A stretch of DNA of 34,963 bases from Clostridia bacterium (GTDB taxonomy: Bacteria; Bacillota; Clostridia; TANB77; CAG-508), in the NCBI GenBank assembly GCA_022795075.1, contig JAAWGB010000018.1, positions 1 to 34,963 of the forward strand, read 5' to 3'. How positions within the stretch are numbered: the stretch's first letter is position 1; the number at the start of each line of letters is the position of its first letter. The notes under the pieces are model-generated. The model was not told where the DNA came from, searched no databases, and worked only from the letters and a program-made list of their open reading frames with translations. Positions 6,571-28,967 of the stretch are shown here, one piece after another. Made by a program: the position numbers and the translations under genes.

Positions 6571-7144
6571 CTATTTATTTTCTTTATACCATTCAGCGAA
6601 AACTTTTAATGCTTCTACTGAACTATCAATTTTCCTTCGTTCTTCTCTTTCTGTACTATCCATTTCAGCCAGTGTCTTTTCAAAATGTTCTGGCTTAAAT
6701 ATATACCATAAATCAGACCATTTTTCTTCTCTATCCATACCTTGAATTTTTGTTGCTAAATTTCCTGGATGTTTTCCATAAAAATAATGTATCTCTTTTC
6801 CATCATGATATGCTAAGCATCCCTCAAATCTACATTTTCTATCTTCTTTATTTTCCATTAGTTTCAAAATTCCGTCTATTCCTATTGTATCTAGTGAAAA
6901 AATTAACAAATGCCCTTGGAAATCCATTTAACTCATCTATAAAAAATCCAGTATCTAATGCTATGCAAGGTTTCCTTACAATTTCATATGCTTGTTTTAC
7001 TTTTGCAGTTGCTATTTCTTTTATATCATCACTTCTAGGTTCATCTAATTCAAAATCATATGTACTAAACTTTAAATTATTAAAATACCTTTCTGCTGAT
7101 TTTGCTTTTCCTTTATTATGTGTTACAAATACTATTTCTTCCAT
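6571..7144 (-). pseudogene. HAM1/RdgB-type non-canonical NTP pyrophosphatase, frameshifted second copy
   Basis: ORFs 6848..7144 and 6571..6927 overlap in different frames. Joined they read MEEIVFVTHNKGKAKSAERYF..CIALDTGFFIDELNGFPRAFVNF|SLDTIGIDGILKLMENK..., with the break in a T6 run. Confidence 0.75.
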
Positions 7145-7225
7145 TTATTGCACCTCTTATTCTTATGCTGTAATTCTATCACAGGTTGACAAATTTTACA
7201 ATAAAATCAAAAATTAAAAATCCTA

Positions 7226-9022: not shown

Positions 9023-9035
9023 TTTTCCTCCTTAA

Positions 9036-9123
9036 CCTGTCCCAAAAAACACATTTAGGGGTAATTGGTGCCTGTCCCCAAACACACATTTAGGGGGAAC
9101 TGGTGCCTGTCCCCAAACACACA

Positions 9124-9124
<1 letters not shown>
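9036..9124. repeat. 35-bp tandem repeat, about 2.5 copies (CCTGTCCCC..TTTAGGGG..CTGGTG)
   Basis: Units 9036-9070, 9071-9105, partial 9106-9124; related copies at 28711-28762 and 28901-28952. Confidence 0.9.
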
Positions 9125-11157
<2,033 letters not shown>

Positions 11158-16625: not shown

Positions 16626-18251
16626 TTAATCATTCCATGCTTCTGTCCCATAATATACGCCTACTTTATTTTCTATAAATTTTGCATTTTCTTTACTTGC
16701 TTTTATTAATTCTTTCATAGACATATCTGTCTTTCCAAATTGCTCTGTTATAACATTTTTGTTAGCTCCAACAGGATTTTCTTCAGGTGTTACATTGGTA
16801 GCAATATTTTCATAGAAAGCTTGTGCATCCCAATTTGGAAGTACCTCACCTTTATTATGAAAAAAGGTACAATTCTTTATTTGAAATTTTGGAAATCCTC
16901 CATATAAATAGGCTCCCGTATTAGGGCCAATTACCCTAAAAAATACATTATATACTTTTCCAGAGCAACTACAAAATATTCCAACATTTGGTCCTCCCCA
17001 ACTGTCTGGCTCGGTAGGAGTAAATTCAAAACATAAATTCTTTAATATTACATCTGCTCCTAACATAATTGCTGGACGTCTCCAACCTGCACCATCATCT
17101 TTGGCATTATAACGAATAATGGTACCACTATTTTCTCCACAAATAGTAATATCTTTTCCATCTGCTAATAATCCAACTGATATTAAATCGTTTGTATTAG
17201 GAACAAAAGTAGGAGTTAACGTATATTCCCCTGCTAAAATTTTTATAATATCACCATCTTGTGAAACATTAACTGCATTTTGTATATCTGTATATGGCTT
17301 TGAAATAGTACCATCTTGACCTGCCATATTTCCTTCATTTGCTACAAAAATAGTACGTCCTATTTTTAAGGTATTAGTGGATTCTTTTCTATTTCCAGCT
17401 TTATCATATACAATCACATAAACTTCATATCGATTTGAATTTATTTCATTGTTTAGTATATAATTTGACTCCAAACTCTCATATTTTGTTCCATTAATAT
17501 AGTATTCATATTTTCCTATTCCACTTTTTACACTCTCTTCATTTTCTTCTGCATCTTCTGCATCAACCATTATTTTAACTTTATTATCATTGGTCATTGC
17601 CTTACTAATAGAAAAATCTAATGGTTCTACTTTATCGATTATTTTTATATTTATTATTTTTGTTTTTCTTTCTCCTGCTGAATCTTCTACTACAAATTCA
17701 TAACTTCCGTTTTTTGTTAAGCAAAACGTTCCATCATCTTTTTTGCTTACATTATCATTTATACATTGTATATTTGTTATACTTCCATTTGTAGAACCCG
17801 CATGTATGGTAAGAGTTATTTCTTGATTGGTATATCCTTTTGGATCTAATTGATAACGAAAACTGATTCCTTCTATTTTTCCTTCTATTGTTACACTTAA
17901 ATTTTTATCTATCTTATATTCATATCCTTTATATTCACCAGTAATTTCATCCTCATTTAATTGGATTGTTATTTCATTTAGTTTTTTTGATAATTCTTCA
18001 TAATATTCATTTCCTAGTGTTTCTAATGTTACTTTATTTCCTTTTTCGCCTTCTTCTATTTGTATTTCCATAATTGCCATTTCTATTTCTTCTTTTAATT
18101 GTGCTTTTATTGTCTCTTCTTGTGCTTTACTTGCTTTACTTAATATCCCATTTTCTCCTGTTAAGGTTGTAAGGGTTATTCCTACTAAAATTAATAATAT
18201 TATGATTGTAATAATTAATGCTATTAATGTAATTCCTTTTATATTTTTCAT
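16626..18251 (-). CDS. Prepilin-like N-terminus fused to a large extracellular region with a right-handed beta-helix-like domain
   Basis: MKNIKG|ITLIALIITIIILLILVGITLTTLTGENGIL leader; C-terminal FVANEGNMAGQDGTISKPYTDIQNAV..GDIIKILAGEYT. Start reset to 18251 (RBS aggagg). Confidence 0.75.
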   Translation of the reverse strand: MKNIKGITLIALIITIIILLILVGITLTTLTGENGILSKASKAQEETIKAQLKEEIEMAIMEIQIEEGEKGNKVTLETLGNEYYEELSKKLNEITIQLNEDEITGEYKGYEYKIDKNLSVTIEGKIEGISFRYQLDPKGYTNQEITLTIHAGSTNGSITNIQCINDNVSKKDDGTFCLTKNGSYEFVVEDSAGERKTKIINIKIIDKVEPLDFSISKAMTNDNKVKIMVDAEDAEENEESVKSGIGKYEYYINGTKYESLESNYILNNEINSNRYEVYVIVYDKAGNRKESTNTLKIGRTIFVANEGNMAGQDGTISKPYTDIQNAVNVSQDGDIIKILAGEYTLTPTFVPNTNDLISVGLLADGKDITICGENSGTIIRYNAKDDGAGWRRPAIMLGADVILKNLCFEFTPTEPDSWGGPNVGIFCSCSGKVYNVFFRVIGPNTGAYLYGGFPKFQIKNCTFFHNKGEVLPNWDAQAFYENIATNVTPEENPVGANKNVITEQFGKTDMSMKELIKASKENAKFIENKVGVYYGTEAWND

Positions 18252-18306
18252 TTGTTTCCTCCTTTTTTGTTTTAGTATTCTTTTATTTGTTATTGGTACT
18301 TTTTGC

Positions 18307-18335
18307 ATTTTACCAACAAAGTAAAATTACGTCAA
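18307..18335 (-). promoter_or_regulatory. Promoter P1 (TTGACG-N17-TAAAAT) of the 16626..18251 gene
   Basis: -35 at 18330-18335, -10 at 18307-18312. Confidence 0.7.
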
Positions 18336-18365
18336 CATGTTATAATATTATTTATGTTATTACTA

Positions 18366-18612
18366 GTTACCGTTCACTACTAGCACCATTCAAACTTGCA
18401 AAAGACTAGAATAACAATATTTATTCGGATTTTCGGTTACCCTACATGACGCTAAGAAATATTAAAAATACAGCTGAACGATAGCCGAAAACAGGACCCT
18501 TTCATCTGTATTTTAAATATTTCTAAAGCTATTTCGGTCACATTCAAATCCTCAAAAATATTGTTATTCTAGTCTTTTGCAAGTTTGAATGGTGTTAGTA
18601 GTGAACGGTAAC
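18366..18612. repeat. 247-bp palindromic / MITE-like element with 57-nt arms (1 mismatch) and a nested 19-bp inverted repeat
   Basis: GTTACCGTTCACTACTAGCACCATTCAAACTTGCAAAAGACTAGAATAACAATATTT at the left; reverse complement at the right with one G/A change. Confidence 0.9.
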
Positions 18613-18642
18613 AATAAATTAAATAATCCAAATTATAACATA

Positions 18643-18671
18643 TTGACATAATTTTAATTCATTCATACAAT
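18643..18671 (+). promoter_or_regulatory. Promoter P2 (TTGACA-N17-TACAAT) of the 18704..20083 gene
   Basis: -35 at 18643-18648, -10 at 18666-18671. Confidence 0.8.
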
Positions 18672-18703
18672 AACAATATAAATTTAAAATAAGGAGAATT
18701 CAA

Positions 18704-20083
18704 ATGAAGAAAATAGCAAACCTTTCAAGTGCAAAAACGAATTATACAGGTATTACACTAATTGCATTAGTTATCACCATAATTGTGCTATTAATATTAG
18801 CAGGAATAACAATTGCAACCTTAACTGGAGAAAATGGAATCTTACATAAAGCTACCCAAGCTGAGGAAAAAACAGAACAATCACAAGCAAAAGAAAAATT
18901 AGAATTAACTTTATTAGACTTGCAAACCGAAAAATCTACCAATTCAAATTATAATGAAAACGAATTTATAGATGATGCCTTACTATCTGCTGATATGCAA
19001 GTAGATGAAGATATTATAACAGTAGATAATTATCAATTCCAAATTGATCGAACGGTTCCTAAAATAGTAAATGAATTAGGAAAAGCTACTGAGCAAACTT
19101 TGTTAATGCCTGTCATAAGAAAAATATATGCAGAAGAAGGGCATACACAAATTCATGTAAAAATAGAACTAAAAAATATAGAAGGAACTACCTTAACCTA
19201 TATCATACAAAAAGAAGGTGAACTAGTAGAAAAAGAAAGAATTGAAAATCAAACAGAATTCGAACACACTTTTAAAAATTTAGAACTTAACACAAAATAT
19301 AAAATAACCATCGAAGCTACCAATGAATATGGAACAAGAACAAGAAATATTACTATATCAACCAAAAAACCAAGCATTCAATTAAGTGACACTTCCCTAC
19401 GATTAAAAATAGATGAAACAAAATTGTTAACTTATACTATTATCCCAGAAACTACTAATAAAAACATAAAATGGACAAGTAGTAATTCTAATGTTGTAAC
19501 AGTAGACGAAAATGGATTACTAACAGCCATTAAAGAAGGAAAAGCAACCATAACAGCCTTATCAGAAGATGATAGTTTGGAATCTGCAATTTGTATGATT
19601 GAAGTTGTTAAAACTGTTTATCTCATACAAGATGGACAATTAAATCAGAATATTTTGGGTAGTTGGAATCCTTTTTTCCTTAATAAAACTGATTCTTTTG
19701 TCACCTATCCAAAAAATGGTATATCTATACAGTGTTCACATGCTAATAATAGAGTTGGTATTTATTCTACTAATAAAATTGATGTAACAGATATTAATTC
19801 TATTACTACTAATATATCCCTACGTAATAATTATTTTAACGCAACAACCATAACCTCATCCTTATATATTGGTTTATGCTCTACTATTGATAATACAGTA
19901 ACTAATTTCGAACGATATGTATCAAAATCTACCAAAGCAAATTCTACTCAAAACTATGAATTAAATTTAGATACTAAAGACTTGCAAGGAGAATATTATT
20001 TAAAAATAGTAGCTACCCATGGAAATGAATATCATGCTTATAGTGTTTTTGCAACAATTTTTAACATGGTTGCCTGGAAATAA
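18704..20083 (+). CDS. Prepilin-like N-terminus with Fn3-like and BIG2 (bacterial Ig-like) domains
   Basis: G|ITLIALVITIIVLLILAGITIATLTGENGIL; LKIDETKLLTYTIIPETTNKNIKWTSSNSNVVTVDENGLLTAIKEGKATITA is a classic BIG2 signature. Confidence 0.8.
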   Translation: MKKIANLSSAKTNYTGITLIALVITIIVLLILAGITIATLTGENGILHKATQAEEKTEQSQAKEKLELTLLDLQTEKSTNSNYNENEFIDDALLSADMQVDEDIITVDNYQFQIDRTVPKIVNELGKATEQTLLMPVIRKIYAEEGHTQIHVKIELKNIEGTTLTYIIQKEGELVEKERIENQTEFEHTFKNLELNTKYKITIEATNEYGTRTRNITISTKKPSIQLSDTSLRLKIDETKLLTYTIIPETTNKNIKWTSSNSNVVTVDENGLLTAIKEGKATITALSEDDSLESAICMIEVVKTVYLIQDGQLNQNILGSWNPFFLNKTDSFVTYPKNGISIQCSHANNRVGIYSTNKIDVTDINSITTNISLRNNYFNATTITSSLYIGLCSTIDNTVTNFERYVSKSTKANSTQNYELNLDTKDLQGEYYLKIVATHGNEYHAYSVFATIFNMVAWK

Positions 20084-20106
20084 AAATAGAACTTTTCCTA
20101 CCCAAT

Positions 20107-20157
20107 AAAAAATTAAAATCGCTTTAATTTTGATAATTAAAAGCGATTTTAATTTTT
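20107..20157. terminator. Bidirectional terminator between convergent surface-protein genes
   Basis: aaaaattaaaatcgcttt..aaaagcgattttaattttt inverted repeat. Confidence 0.85.
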
Positions 20158-20163
20158 AAATTT

Positions 20164-21066
20164 TTAATTTCCTGCTGTGTATTTCATTGCCCAATATCCT
20201 GTTAGTTGTTTTCCATCAAATTCGAACGCTTTTGGTATTTGATAACCTATCCCTGTTTGTGTGGAAGTAGCATCAATAAATCTAACTTCTGTTCTTCCTT
20301 GTTCTGGCTGTTTTTGCTGGCTACTTGTTAGTTTAAATTCATATTTTGGTATCCATGTATAGTAGATTTGTTTCCCATTTGCCTCTACCATAATATTAGC
20401 CCATTTGCTATTTTTGTAATCATACCAATCCTTAGTTGGCTTTTTGTTAATCCAATTTCCTGGTGTTAGGTTGTCTTGTTCGTTTACTTCTAAATATCTA
20501 GTTCTTTCTACTATAAAGCCGTTCATCTAATTTAGGTGTACACAAGTACACGCCATTTACCAATCATAGTCTCCATTTCTAATTTCAATACTTTCTAGTT
20601 CTTCCATTTCTAGTATTTTAATTCCTAATTCTTTACACCATTGTTCTTGTTTTTTATTATTTGGTATTTTTGGATTAGAAGCATAACAAATTTCTCCTTT
20701 ATAAACAACCACATAGTCTTTTGCCTCTTTTTTTATGTTTTCTATTATATCATTTATAGAAATGGTTACATCATTTTCTTCAATATCCAATATTATACCT
20801 TGTTCAATTGCATTTTTTAATGGTTCTCCTGAATTAATGGGATATGTATCTGTAGTCATATCTTCCATAATTCTCCATGAAACATATAGATTTACTTTTT
20901 CTCTATATTCCCCCATGTTATTTTTGAATTTAGCTTCCTCTGCTTTGGCTAATAATCCATCTTCTCCCATTATCATGCCAATTCCTATTCCTGCTAGTAT
21001 TAATAATACAATTATAGTAATAATCAATGCAATTAATGTGATTCCTTTTTCTTTGCTACTCTTCAT
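20164..21066 (-). pseudogene. Prepilin-like protein split by two compensating indels (ORFs 20557..21066 and 20164..20526)
   Basis: N-terminal KEKG|ITLIALIITIIVLLILAGIGIGM. The intervening 30 nt read VNGVYLCTPKLDE in a shifted frame, then return to the original frame for GFIVERTRYLEVNEQDNLTPGNWINKKP. Confidence 0.7.
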
Positions 21067-21108
21067 CTATTTCTCCCTATTTATGATTTCCAAAATTGAA
21101 ATTTCTTT

Positions 21109-21771
21109 TTATATTCCTTTACCACATACTGCTACACCTCTACTGTAATATTCTTGACTATAATATTGGGTCGTGTAGCCAAAAATACCACTTATACCAC
21201 GAACAAGAATTGGCTCATTTGCGACAACCAAACTACCTGGTGTTGCTAAATGCCAACCACGACATCCTGGATTTATATCTGTAGCATTTCCCAAAGCATC
21301 TCCTGCTTTTGCTAATCTATCCCCATAAGCATCATAATATTTTGCATTTATTTTTGTGAAATATCTACTTTCATATACTCCTGCTACCATTTCTCGATGT
21401 GCTGTATTTAACATTACACCTGTTTTATTTCCTGTTGTTGATGTAATAGCATTATCATTGCTTGGATTTCCATATCCTGATGCAGAAAGAATCGCTATAG
21501 CTCCATATTCTGTACTCCTCATCATGTGTACATCAATATTATTACTTCCACTAGAAGCTGTTAAGTCATCATTTAATGTTTCTGAAAGTCCCATACCTTG
21601 TCCACTTTGTTCCATTTCTCTGAATTCTCTTGCCCAAGTTTCACCTGTTTTAATATCTTTATATTGTGTATTAGGATTTGCTTGTAAAGCTGCTTCTACG
21701 GTGCTAAAACTACTTACTATTGTTATAATTGTTGTAATCATAACAAAACTTACTATTTTTAATTTTTTCAT
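21109..21771 (-). CDS. Secreted protein with Sec-type signal peptide
   Basis: MKKLKIVSFVMITTIITIVSSFSTVEA signal; MRSTEYGAIAILSASGYG..STTGNKTGV module. Confidence 0.65.
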   Translation of the reverse strand: MKKLKIVSFVMITTIITIVSSFSTVEAALQANPNTQYKDIKTGETWAREFREMEQSGQGMGLSETLNDDLTASSGSNNIDVHMMRSTEYGAIAILSASGYGNPSNDNAITSTTGNKTGVMLNTAHREMVAGVYESRYFTKINAKYYDAYGDRLAKAGDALGNATDINPGCRGWHLATPGSLVVANEPILVRGISGIFGYTTQYYSQEYYSRGVAVCGKGI

Positions 21772-21829: not shown

Positions 21830-21885
21830 TAATTTATAGTCTGATTGCTTTAATTTTAGGTTACAGTTCACTAAAAATAAATTAG

Positions 21886-22049
21886 ATGATTCAAAGACAA
21901 CAATACTATTCTGAATATGAAAATGGAAGAAGAACTCTTCCCCTTCAACACTTAATAACATTAGCCAATATTACAATACTTCAATAGATTATTTAGTTGG
22001 ATTATCCAACGAAAAACATGTAAAAAAAAACAAGTTCGCACTTATTTAA
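21886..22049 (+). pseudogene. 3' remnant of an XRE-family HTH regulator
   Basis: QQYYSEYENGRRTLPLQHLITLAN(frameshift)YYNTSIDYLVGLSNEKH matches the C-terminal half of Cro/CI-type HTH domains; the 5' half is missing. Confidence 0.65.
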
Positions 22050-25552: not shown

Positions 25553-25722
25553 TGTTACCGTTCACTAACTTGATTTATTATAAAAAATATATAAACTTTT
25601 CGATTAAAATAATAGGTCAGTAAACTGTAACAATTTTTAATTCTTTTCGTTACAGTTCACTACTAGCACCATTCAAACTTACAAAAGACAACAATAACAA
25701 TATTTATTTTCAGCAAACTGTA
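25553..25722. repeat. Two short inverted-repeat elements related to the 18366-18612 element
   Basis: GTTACCGTTCACTaac...agtaaACTGTAAC, then GTTACAGTTCACTACTAGCACCATTCAAACTTACAAAAGAC.AACAATAACAATATTTATT...gcaaACTGTAAC. Confidence 0.8.
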
Positions 25723-25863
25723 ACTTCTTTTCTCTTCAATATTTTTCATACTTTGAGTTTATAGTTATCTTCTACTATTCTAAATGATAGAAATTACAAT
25801 ATTACCATTTTGATTGAATGGTAACATTACAAAATAAAATATTATCTTAGTTACCAATCATCA

Positions 25864-28710: not shown

Positions 28711-28952
28711 TGGTGTGTTTGGGGACAGGCACCAGTTACCCCTAAATGTGTTTTTGGGGACAGGTCTAAACTACTTAAAAATGATATAAACATGCTTTTT
28801 TAAAAATATCAAATTAGCTAAAGTTCTTTATTCGTACACAAAATAGAACCAAACGATAAGTTCGTATCTCTCCTCAATTACTCAAAAAGAGGGAAACAGA
28901 CTTGTCCCAAAAAACACATTTAGGGGTAACTGGTGCCTGTCCCCAAACACAC
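28711..28952. repeat. 242-bp inverted-repeat element with about 52-bp termini made of the GTGCCTGTCCCC repeat
   Basis: 28711-28762 and 28901-28952 are near-perfect reverse complements. Confidence 0.88.
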
Positions 28953-28967
28953 CCCAACACATCCAAA

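Follow-up and report, generated by a model that had tools for sequence, protein, structure and literature searches.

The window, a stretch of 34,963 nucleotides from the draft genome of a Clostridia bacterium (1.77 Mb in 89 contigs), contains two divergent genes with a 247-bp palindrome (18366–18612) between them. The left gene (16626–18251, minus strand; the start is most likely 18251 rather than 18308) shows a weak match to an Ig-like domain, and the right gene (18704–20083, plus strand) carries a Big_2 domain. An earlier sequence-only reading had called both genes prepilin-like, and the N-termini of both (KNIKGITLIALIITIIILLI in the left gene) fit this description. Each gene is served by a good sigma-A promoter that points outward from the palindrome. 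Specifically, promoter P1 of the left gene (18307–18335, minus strand) combines TTGACG (18335–18330) and TAAAAT (18312–18307) across a 17-nt spacer, and promoter P2 of the right gene (18643–18671, plus strand) combines TTGACA (18643–18648) and TACAAT (18666–18671) across a spacer of the same length. The −35 boxes of P1 and P2 each start exactly 30 nt outside the palindrome, the spacing that had been reported. Prepilin-like genes (GITLIALVITIIVLLILAGI) form a large family in this genome, with varied C-terminal parts and in many cases a MITE before them; the loci are window positions 16626–21771 and L046, L056, L065, L079, L082, L097 and L100, and the upstream regions of these genes resemble one another within the window.

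The architecture of the palindrome is as previously described: 57-nt arms (18366–18422 and 18556–18612) pair with one mismatch, an inner inverted repeat (18455–18473 and 18506–18524), also with one mismatch (A/A), surrounds a 32-nt loop (18474–18505), and no ORF lies within the 247 bp. The arms can be divided into terminal inverted repeats (TIRs) GTTACCGTTCACT, at 18366–18378 (plus strand) and 18600–18612 (minus strand), which are supported by the count of TIR-like sites in the genome, and outer arms at 18379–18422 (plus strand) and 18556–18599 (minus strand), which remain complementary to each other though their sequence varies among copies and species. A conserved core hairpin module (18417–18561, plus strand; 150 bits with covariance model R1) contains the inner repeat and a head, AACGATAGCCGAAAACAGGACCCTTT. 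The predicted RNA fold of the palindrome has an energy of −124 kcal/mol compared to a shuffle mean of −39 kcal/mol (z −21), and the DNA fold has a z of −18 against shuffles.

What the sequence-only reading overlooked, in an otherwise correct description, is the multicopy nature of the palindrome. Rather than a single copy without homologues, about 40 full or partial copies occur in the 1.77-Mb genome, many of them at contig ends, with further pieces in the window itself. The window palindrome is a whole copy with two type A ends, and other copies end at the same sequence (GTTACCGTTCACT). Genome-wide, 107 sites match the end GTTACMGTTCAYT with at most one mismatch, compared to 15 for a reversed-pattern control. 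Complete copies measure 241–247 bp and shorter elements of 57–99 bp have the same ends; the outer ends are of two types, A (GTTACMGTTCACTACTAGCACCATTC...) or B (GTTACAGTTCACTGAGAATAAATTAGATGATTC...), attached to one common inner part. The majority of complete copies lie between 8-bp direct repeats that match at 7–8 of 8 positions (e.g. TGATTTTT, TATTTTAT and CCTTAGAA), whereas the flanks of the window copy, TATTACTA and AATAAATT, match at only 4 of 8, in keeping with the earlier failure to see a target-site duplication there. The further pieces in the window comprise a 76-bp derivative of this family, shortened by deletion (25649–25724), with a perfect 8-bp duplication, TTCTTTTC; a 78-bp MITE of another subfamily (25554–25631) that shares the TIR; and a truncated copy with one end only (21860–21904, plus strand), outside which the −35 box of the gene at 21109–21771 starts at a distance of 30 nt. 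The family thus has the features of a MITE, being multicopy, under ~300 bp and devoid of a transposase gene, with a target-site duplication and TIRs in common with an autonomous transposon.

The search for an empty site, which the sequence-only reading had recommended, was successful. For a short copy between two genes that we take, by reading of their sequences, to be spoIIR and murA, the site was joined computationally (600 nt), and the joined sequence aligns over about its full length, with no large insertion, in many congeners, some match being present in 186 of 211. An alignment of the eleven best relatives shows the murA promoter conserved, with TTGCAAT and a normally spaced TATATT box, and no element at the site. 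One of the original suggestions, a non-autonomous mobile element, is borne out by the high copy number, the TIRs that the copies share, their 8-bp duplications, this empty site in relatives and the existence of autonomous elements that have the same ends. The window also holds repeats of other kinds. Copies of a second inverted-repeat family (GGTGTGTTTGGGGACAGGCACCAGTTACCCC...), about 96% alike, lie at 9035–9133, 28712–28767 and 28898–28953, the last two paired head to head with 130 nt between them; the GGGGACAGGCACC motif of this family presumably recalls REP-type elements. A 98-nt direct repeat (1–98 and 7067–7164, 91% identical) includes the beginning of an open frame (MEEIVFVTHNKGKAKSAERYF) which, by our reading, resembles an XTP/dITP pyrophosphatase.

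The MITE ends, GTTACMGTTCACT, match the ends of ISBst12-type IS66 transposons of the same genus. These IS66-type elements (PF03050) have a single transposase gene, ends of the form GTTACNGTTCA and perfect 8-bp duplications, as seen in L120, L126 (duplication TTTATTTA) and L122 (duplication ATTTGAGG); others occur in the genus. L120, with ends GTTACTGTTCAGAC, spans 1672 bp between copies of the duplication ATAAAATC and encodes a 496-aa transposase that scores 101 bits against PF03050 (cut-off 23.1). ISDge4, of the ISBst12 group, has the TIR GTGACTACTCAGCA and an 8-bp repeat (PMC12898284), and because of this likeness the elements of the genus can be classed, by sequence, as ISBst12-type; the autonomous partner shows the PF03050 single ORF, 8-bp duplication and GTNAC...TCA TIR of that group, with an NF033517 score (170.6) just below the curated cut-off of 180. 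In the MITE-bearing genome itself, the 3′ end of an IS66-type gene runs directly into GTCACCGTTCACT; this gene occupies two frames and stops at the edge of a contig, and no intact autonomous element with the exact MITE TIR was seen in the 89-contig draft. As a separate observation, the transposase genes of L134 (1030–2485) and L122 (1396–2869) are each in two frames, with the break at nearly the same position (following GGQK/GGQE), which may reflect either shared decay or a programmed frameshift. PF00872 (IS256/Mutator) and PF06782 (ISLre2) transposases were also considered as mobilisers and rejected, both being absent from this genome.

The distance to the −35 box was evaluated across the family. 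Among 100 MITE ends, TTGAC occurs 22 times at an offset of 28–31 and twice elsewhere. A two-box score was then applied to outward promoters within 70 nt of the ends, with dinucleotide-shuffled sequences and inward-pointing promoters as controls. The 86 MITE ends yielded 25 strong outward promoters, 21 of which have the −35 box at 28–30 (mean of 0.15 and maximum of 2 in shuffles; 1 inward), and the remaining offsets from 0 to 69 are almost devoid of strong promoters; about one third of the complete, duplication-bearing copies have no recognisable promoter at 28–30. For 16 distinct low-GC IS66-type elements from related gut Clostridia, the −35 box lies at 28 or 39 in 10 of 11 strong promoters (shuffle mean 0.05; inward 1). 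The IS66-type element L165, whose 8-bp duplication is perfect, is flanked by two strong promoters, one at 28 nt and the second, across the element, at 39 nt. The targeted promoters serve unrelated genes, which we take from their sequences to be rpoB, murA, metK, recN, rny, smc and parA, as well as about nine of the prepilin-like genes. Given such unrelated targets, the position of the window copy between prepilin-like genes exemplifies a general rule, and the bidirectional regulatory hub that had been suggested is not needed, the 30-nt spacing being set by the insertion site and not by centring between two genes.

ISLre2-type (PF06782) elements of the genus served as a positive control, with ends defined by relaxed TIR criteria. 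Sigma-A promoters lie 16 nt from one end in L106, L108 and L109, i.e. in the three of five elements with a well-scorable promoter. The published −35 distance for ISLre2 is 15–17 (PMC3942029), and its reproduction here indicates that the distance method works. The distances 16, 28 and 39 are spaced about one helical turn apart. No comparable offset peak was found in more distant ISBst12-type elements (Dictyobacter, Ktedonobacter and Methanothrix), and ISDge4 was inserted inside a gene (PMC12898284); targeting is therefore not general in the family. As far as we could find, promoter-proximal targeting is new for IS66, no case being reported in the searchable literature, from which subscription papers are missing.

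We consider it very probable that the palindrome is a MITE moved in trans by an ISBst12-type IS66 transposase and placed upstream of sigma-A promoters at a constant distance. From the matching ends we infer the trans-mobilisation by an IS66-type transposase: a single-ORF ISBst12-type enzyme would recognise the GTTACNGTTCA terminal repeats and produce the 8-bp duplication. The transposition complex would set one end such that the −35 box starts 28–30 nt away, or 39–40 nt, one helical turn further. Guidance by RNA polymerase may underlie this placement, most likely through reading of the RNA-polymerase–promoter complex or its bent upstream DNA, and the helical-turn spacing of 16, 28 and 39 makes such promoter sensing, whether by polymerase contact or by upstream DNA bending, directly testable. 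Since insertion leaves the promoter whole, insertions beside essential genes would be tolerated.

A fixed distance and phase relative to the −35 box would also be characteristic of an activator site, and the GTTACMGTTCACT ends might instead be transcription-regulator sites ~66 bp upstream of start sites, the palindromes being operators of a regulon and not insertions. However, this reading is at odds with the 8-bp duplications, the empty site in relatives and the unrelated target genes; moreover, transposons in other species have the same ends at the same distance, and the site is missing from the orthologous murA promoter in related species, such that we regard a regulatory origin as highly improbable. 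Slightly less credible still is untargeted insertion, in which only harmless intergenic events survive and lie upstream of promoters by chance. Most copies are indeed intergenic and spare the promoter, but selection for harmlessness cannot yield a peak of ±1 nt with the other offsets from 0 to 69 almost empty, and the IS66-type distances are unlike the ISLre2 distance in the same genus.

The origin of the window copy itself allows several readings. The only other complete MITE copy in the genome with promoters on two sides, L046, lies between the presumed rpoB and a prepilin gene and has no duplication, and no complete MITE copy combines a duplication with good promoters at 28–30 on both sides. 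Given its two flanking promoters and lack of a duplication, the window copy probably marks a place where two copies recombined; the partner junction was not found in the draft genome because many copies lie at contig ends. The junction could also be an artefact of misassembly in a draft of 89 contigs. We think it rather unlikely that the copy was inserted directly between pre-existing divergent promoters and its duplication has since decayed. L165, with promoters on two sides and its duplication perfect, provides a precedent for such an event, but the TIRs of the window copy are intact while its 8-bp flanks mismatch, and the absence of a duplication is shared with L046.

The core differs from the arms in how it varies. 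Within the family, a covariance model built from 17 core sequences, the window copy included, detects the hairpin in 44 of 292 genomes, distributed over 17 of 39 genera; in 291 genomes of the class outside the family it detects none. The alignment of the 17 sequences (A2) has 60 invariant columns, double changes in 20 of 35 pairs and 96% of cells paired, which none of the shuffled and slid controls approaches. Weaker matches (40–70 bits) have short motifs in common but different heads, so that their homology is likely and no more than that. In genome G294, cores are 98% identical between copies, compared to only ~67–70% for the arms. Across the arms of 13 copies from three species, 602 of 610 positions are Watson–Crick paired; single-sided changes are rare, and counts of G–U wobbles do not discriminate RNA from DNA pairing, as reading the other strand swaps A–C and G–T. 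This pattern needs constraint on the core, plus either arm-to-arm correction or selection for arm pairing. The core was not found within the autonomous IS66 elements searched, gave no blastn match in plasmids or phages, and had no match to its head pattern in viral contigs; a different head pattern gave three loose matches. No Rfam family reaches the gathering threshold for the palindrome. The earlier suggestion of a folded ncRNA is unsupported for the whole element, but the core is a conserved structured hairpin. Some longer hairpins (L032, overlapping L244; L265; L304–L309) contain a second internal-loop module that is conserved (GAGGGATGTTCA... / ...TTTCACGTTC or AGTGAAAGAGGCTC), and hairpin modules are ordered differently in different genera (also L248, L252, L256 and L257).

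It is conceivable, if on balance doubtful, that the element is in essence a functional gene for a structured hairpin of RNA or DNA, represented by the core, which was captured between IS66 ends and kept for its own function by the host or the element. The invariant columns, double changes and spread over 17 genera would fit this, as would the near-identity of the G294 cores next to divergent arms and the absence of the core from autonomous IS66 elements. Against it stands the lack of an Rfam family, and a hairpin gene leaves the ends, the duplications and the promoter spacing unexplained; it is compatible with the MITE reading, and thus adds to that reading and does not replace it. A related proposal, offered here tentatively, is that the core constitutes a previously undescribed hairpin mobile module that rides promoter-seeking IS66 ends, its head and internal loops being recognised in folded form and its arms kept complementary by snap-back or template-switch copying. 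If so, every genome would bear tens of hairpins with one common head and individual stems. The combination of a separately conserved core with copy-specific, self-complementary arms recurs across a bacterial family and calls for an explanation.

REP/BIME and attC sites are imperfect palindromes that are recognised as folded single strands, and resemble the core hairpin in having conserved mismatches and loops within sequence-variable stems. Bacterial MITEs such as MITEPsy1 (PMC3189936) are likewise under 300 bp, multicopy and without an ORF, with the TIRs of a resident IS and target duplications; unlike these, the element described here has a conserved core absent from the examined autonomous IS66-type elements, and its arms differ from one copy to another without loss of self-complementarity. 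The autonomous elements share with ISDge4 of the ISBst12 group of IS66 (PMC12898284) a single-ORF PF03050/NF033517-type transposase, the TIR form GTNACTRYTCAG and 8-bp direct repeats, but ISDge4 was inserted inside a coding gene, whereas the Clostridia elements sit at fixed distances upstream of promoters. In this respect they are closer to TnGBS and ISLre2 (p-MULT 3) and ISKra4 (p-MULT 4), DDE elements with 8–9 bp duplications whose insertions keep a fixed distance from the sigma-A −35 box on its upstream side (PMC3942029), and symmetric-ended p-MULT-type elements target promoters in both orientations (PMC3942029), as do the elements here. However, TnGBS, ISLre2 and ISKra4 belong to the Mutator superfamily (PF06782/PF00872), whereas the partner here is a PF03050 transposase of IS66, and the −35 box lies at 15–17 for p-MULT and ISLre2 (16 in this genus) compared to 28–30 or 39–40 here. 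In PMC3942029, promoter targeting by bacterial DDE transposons is described for Mutator-type families only; its occurrence in IS66-type elements too suggests that it has arisen more than once.
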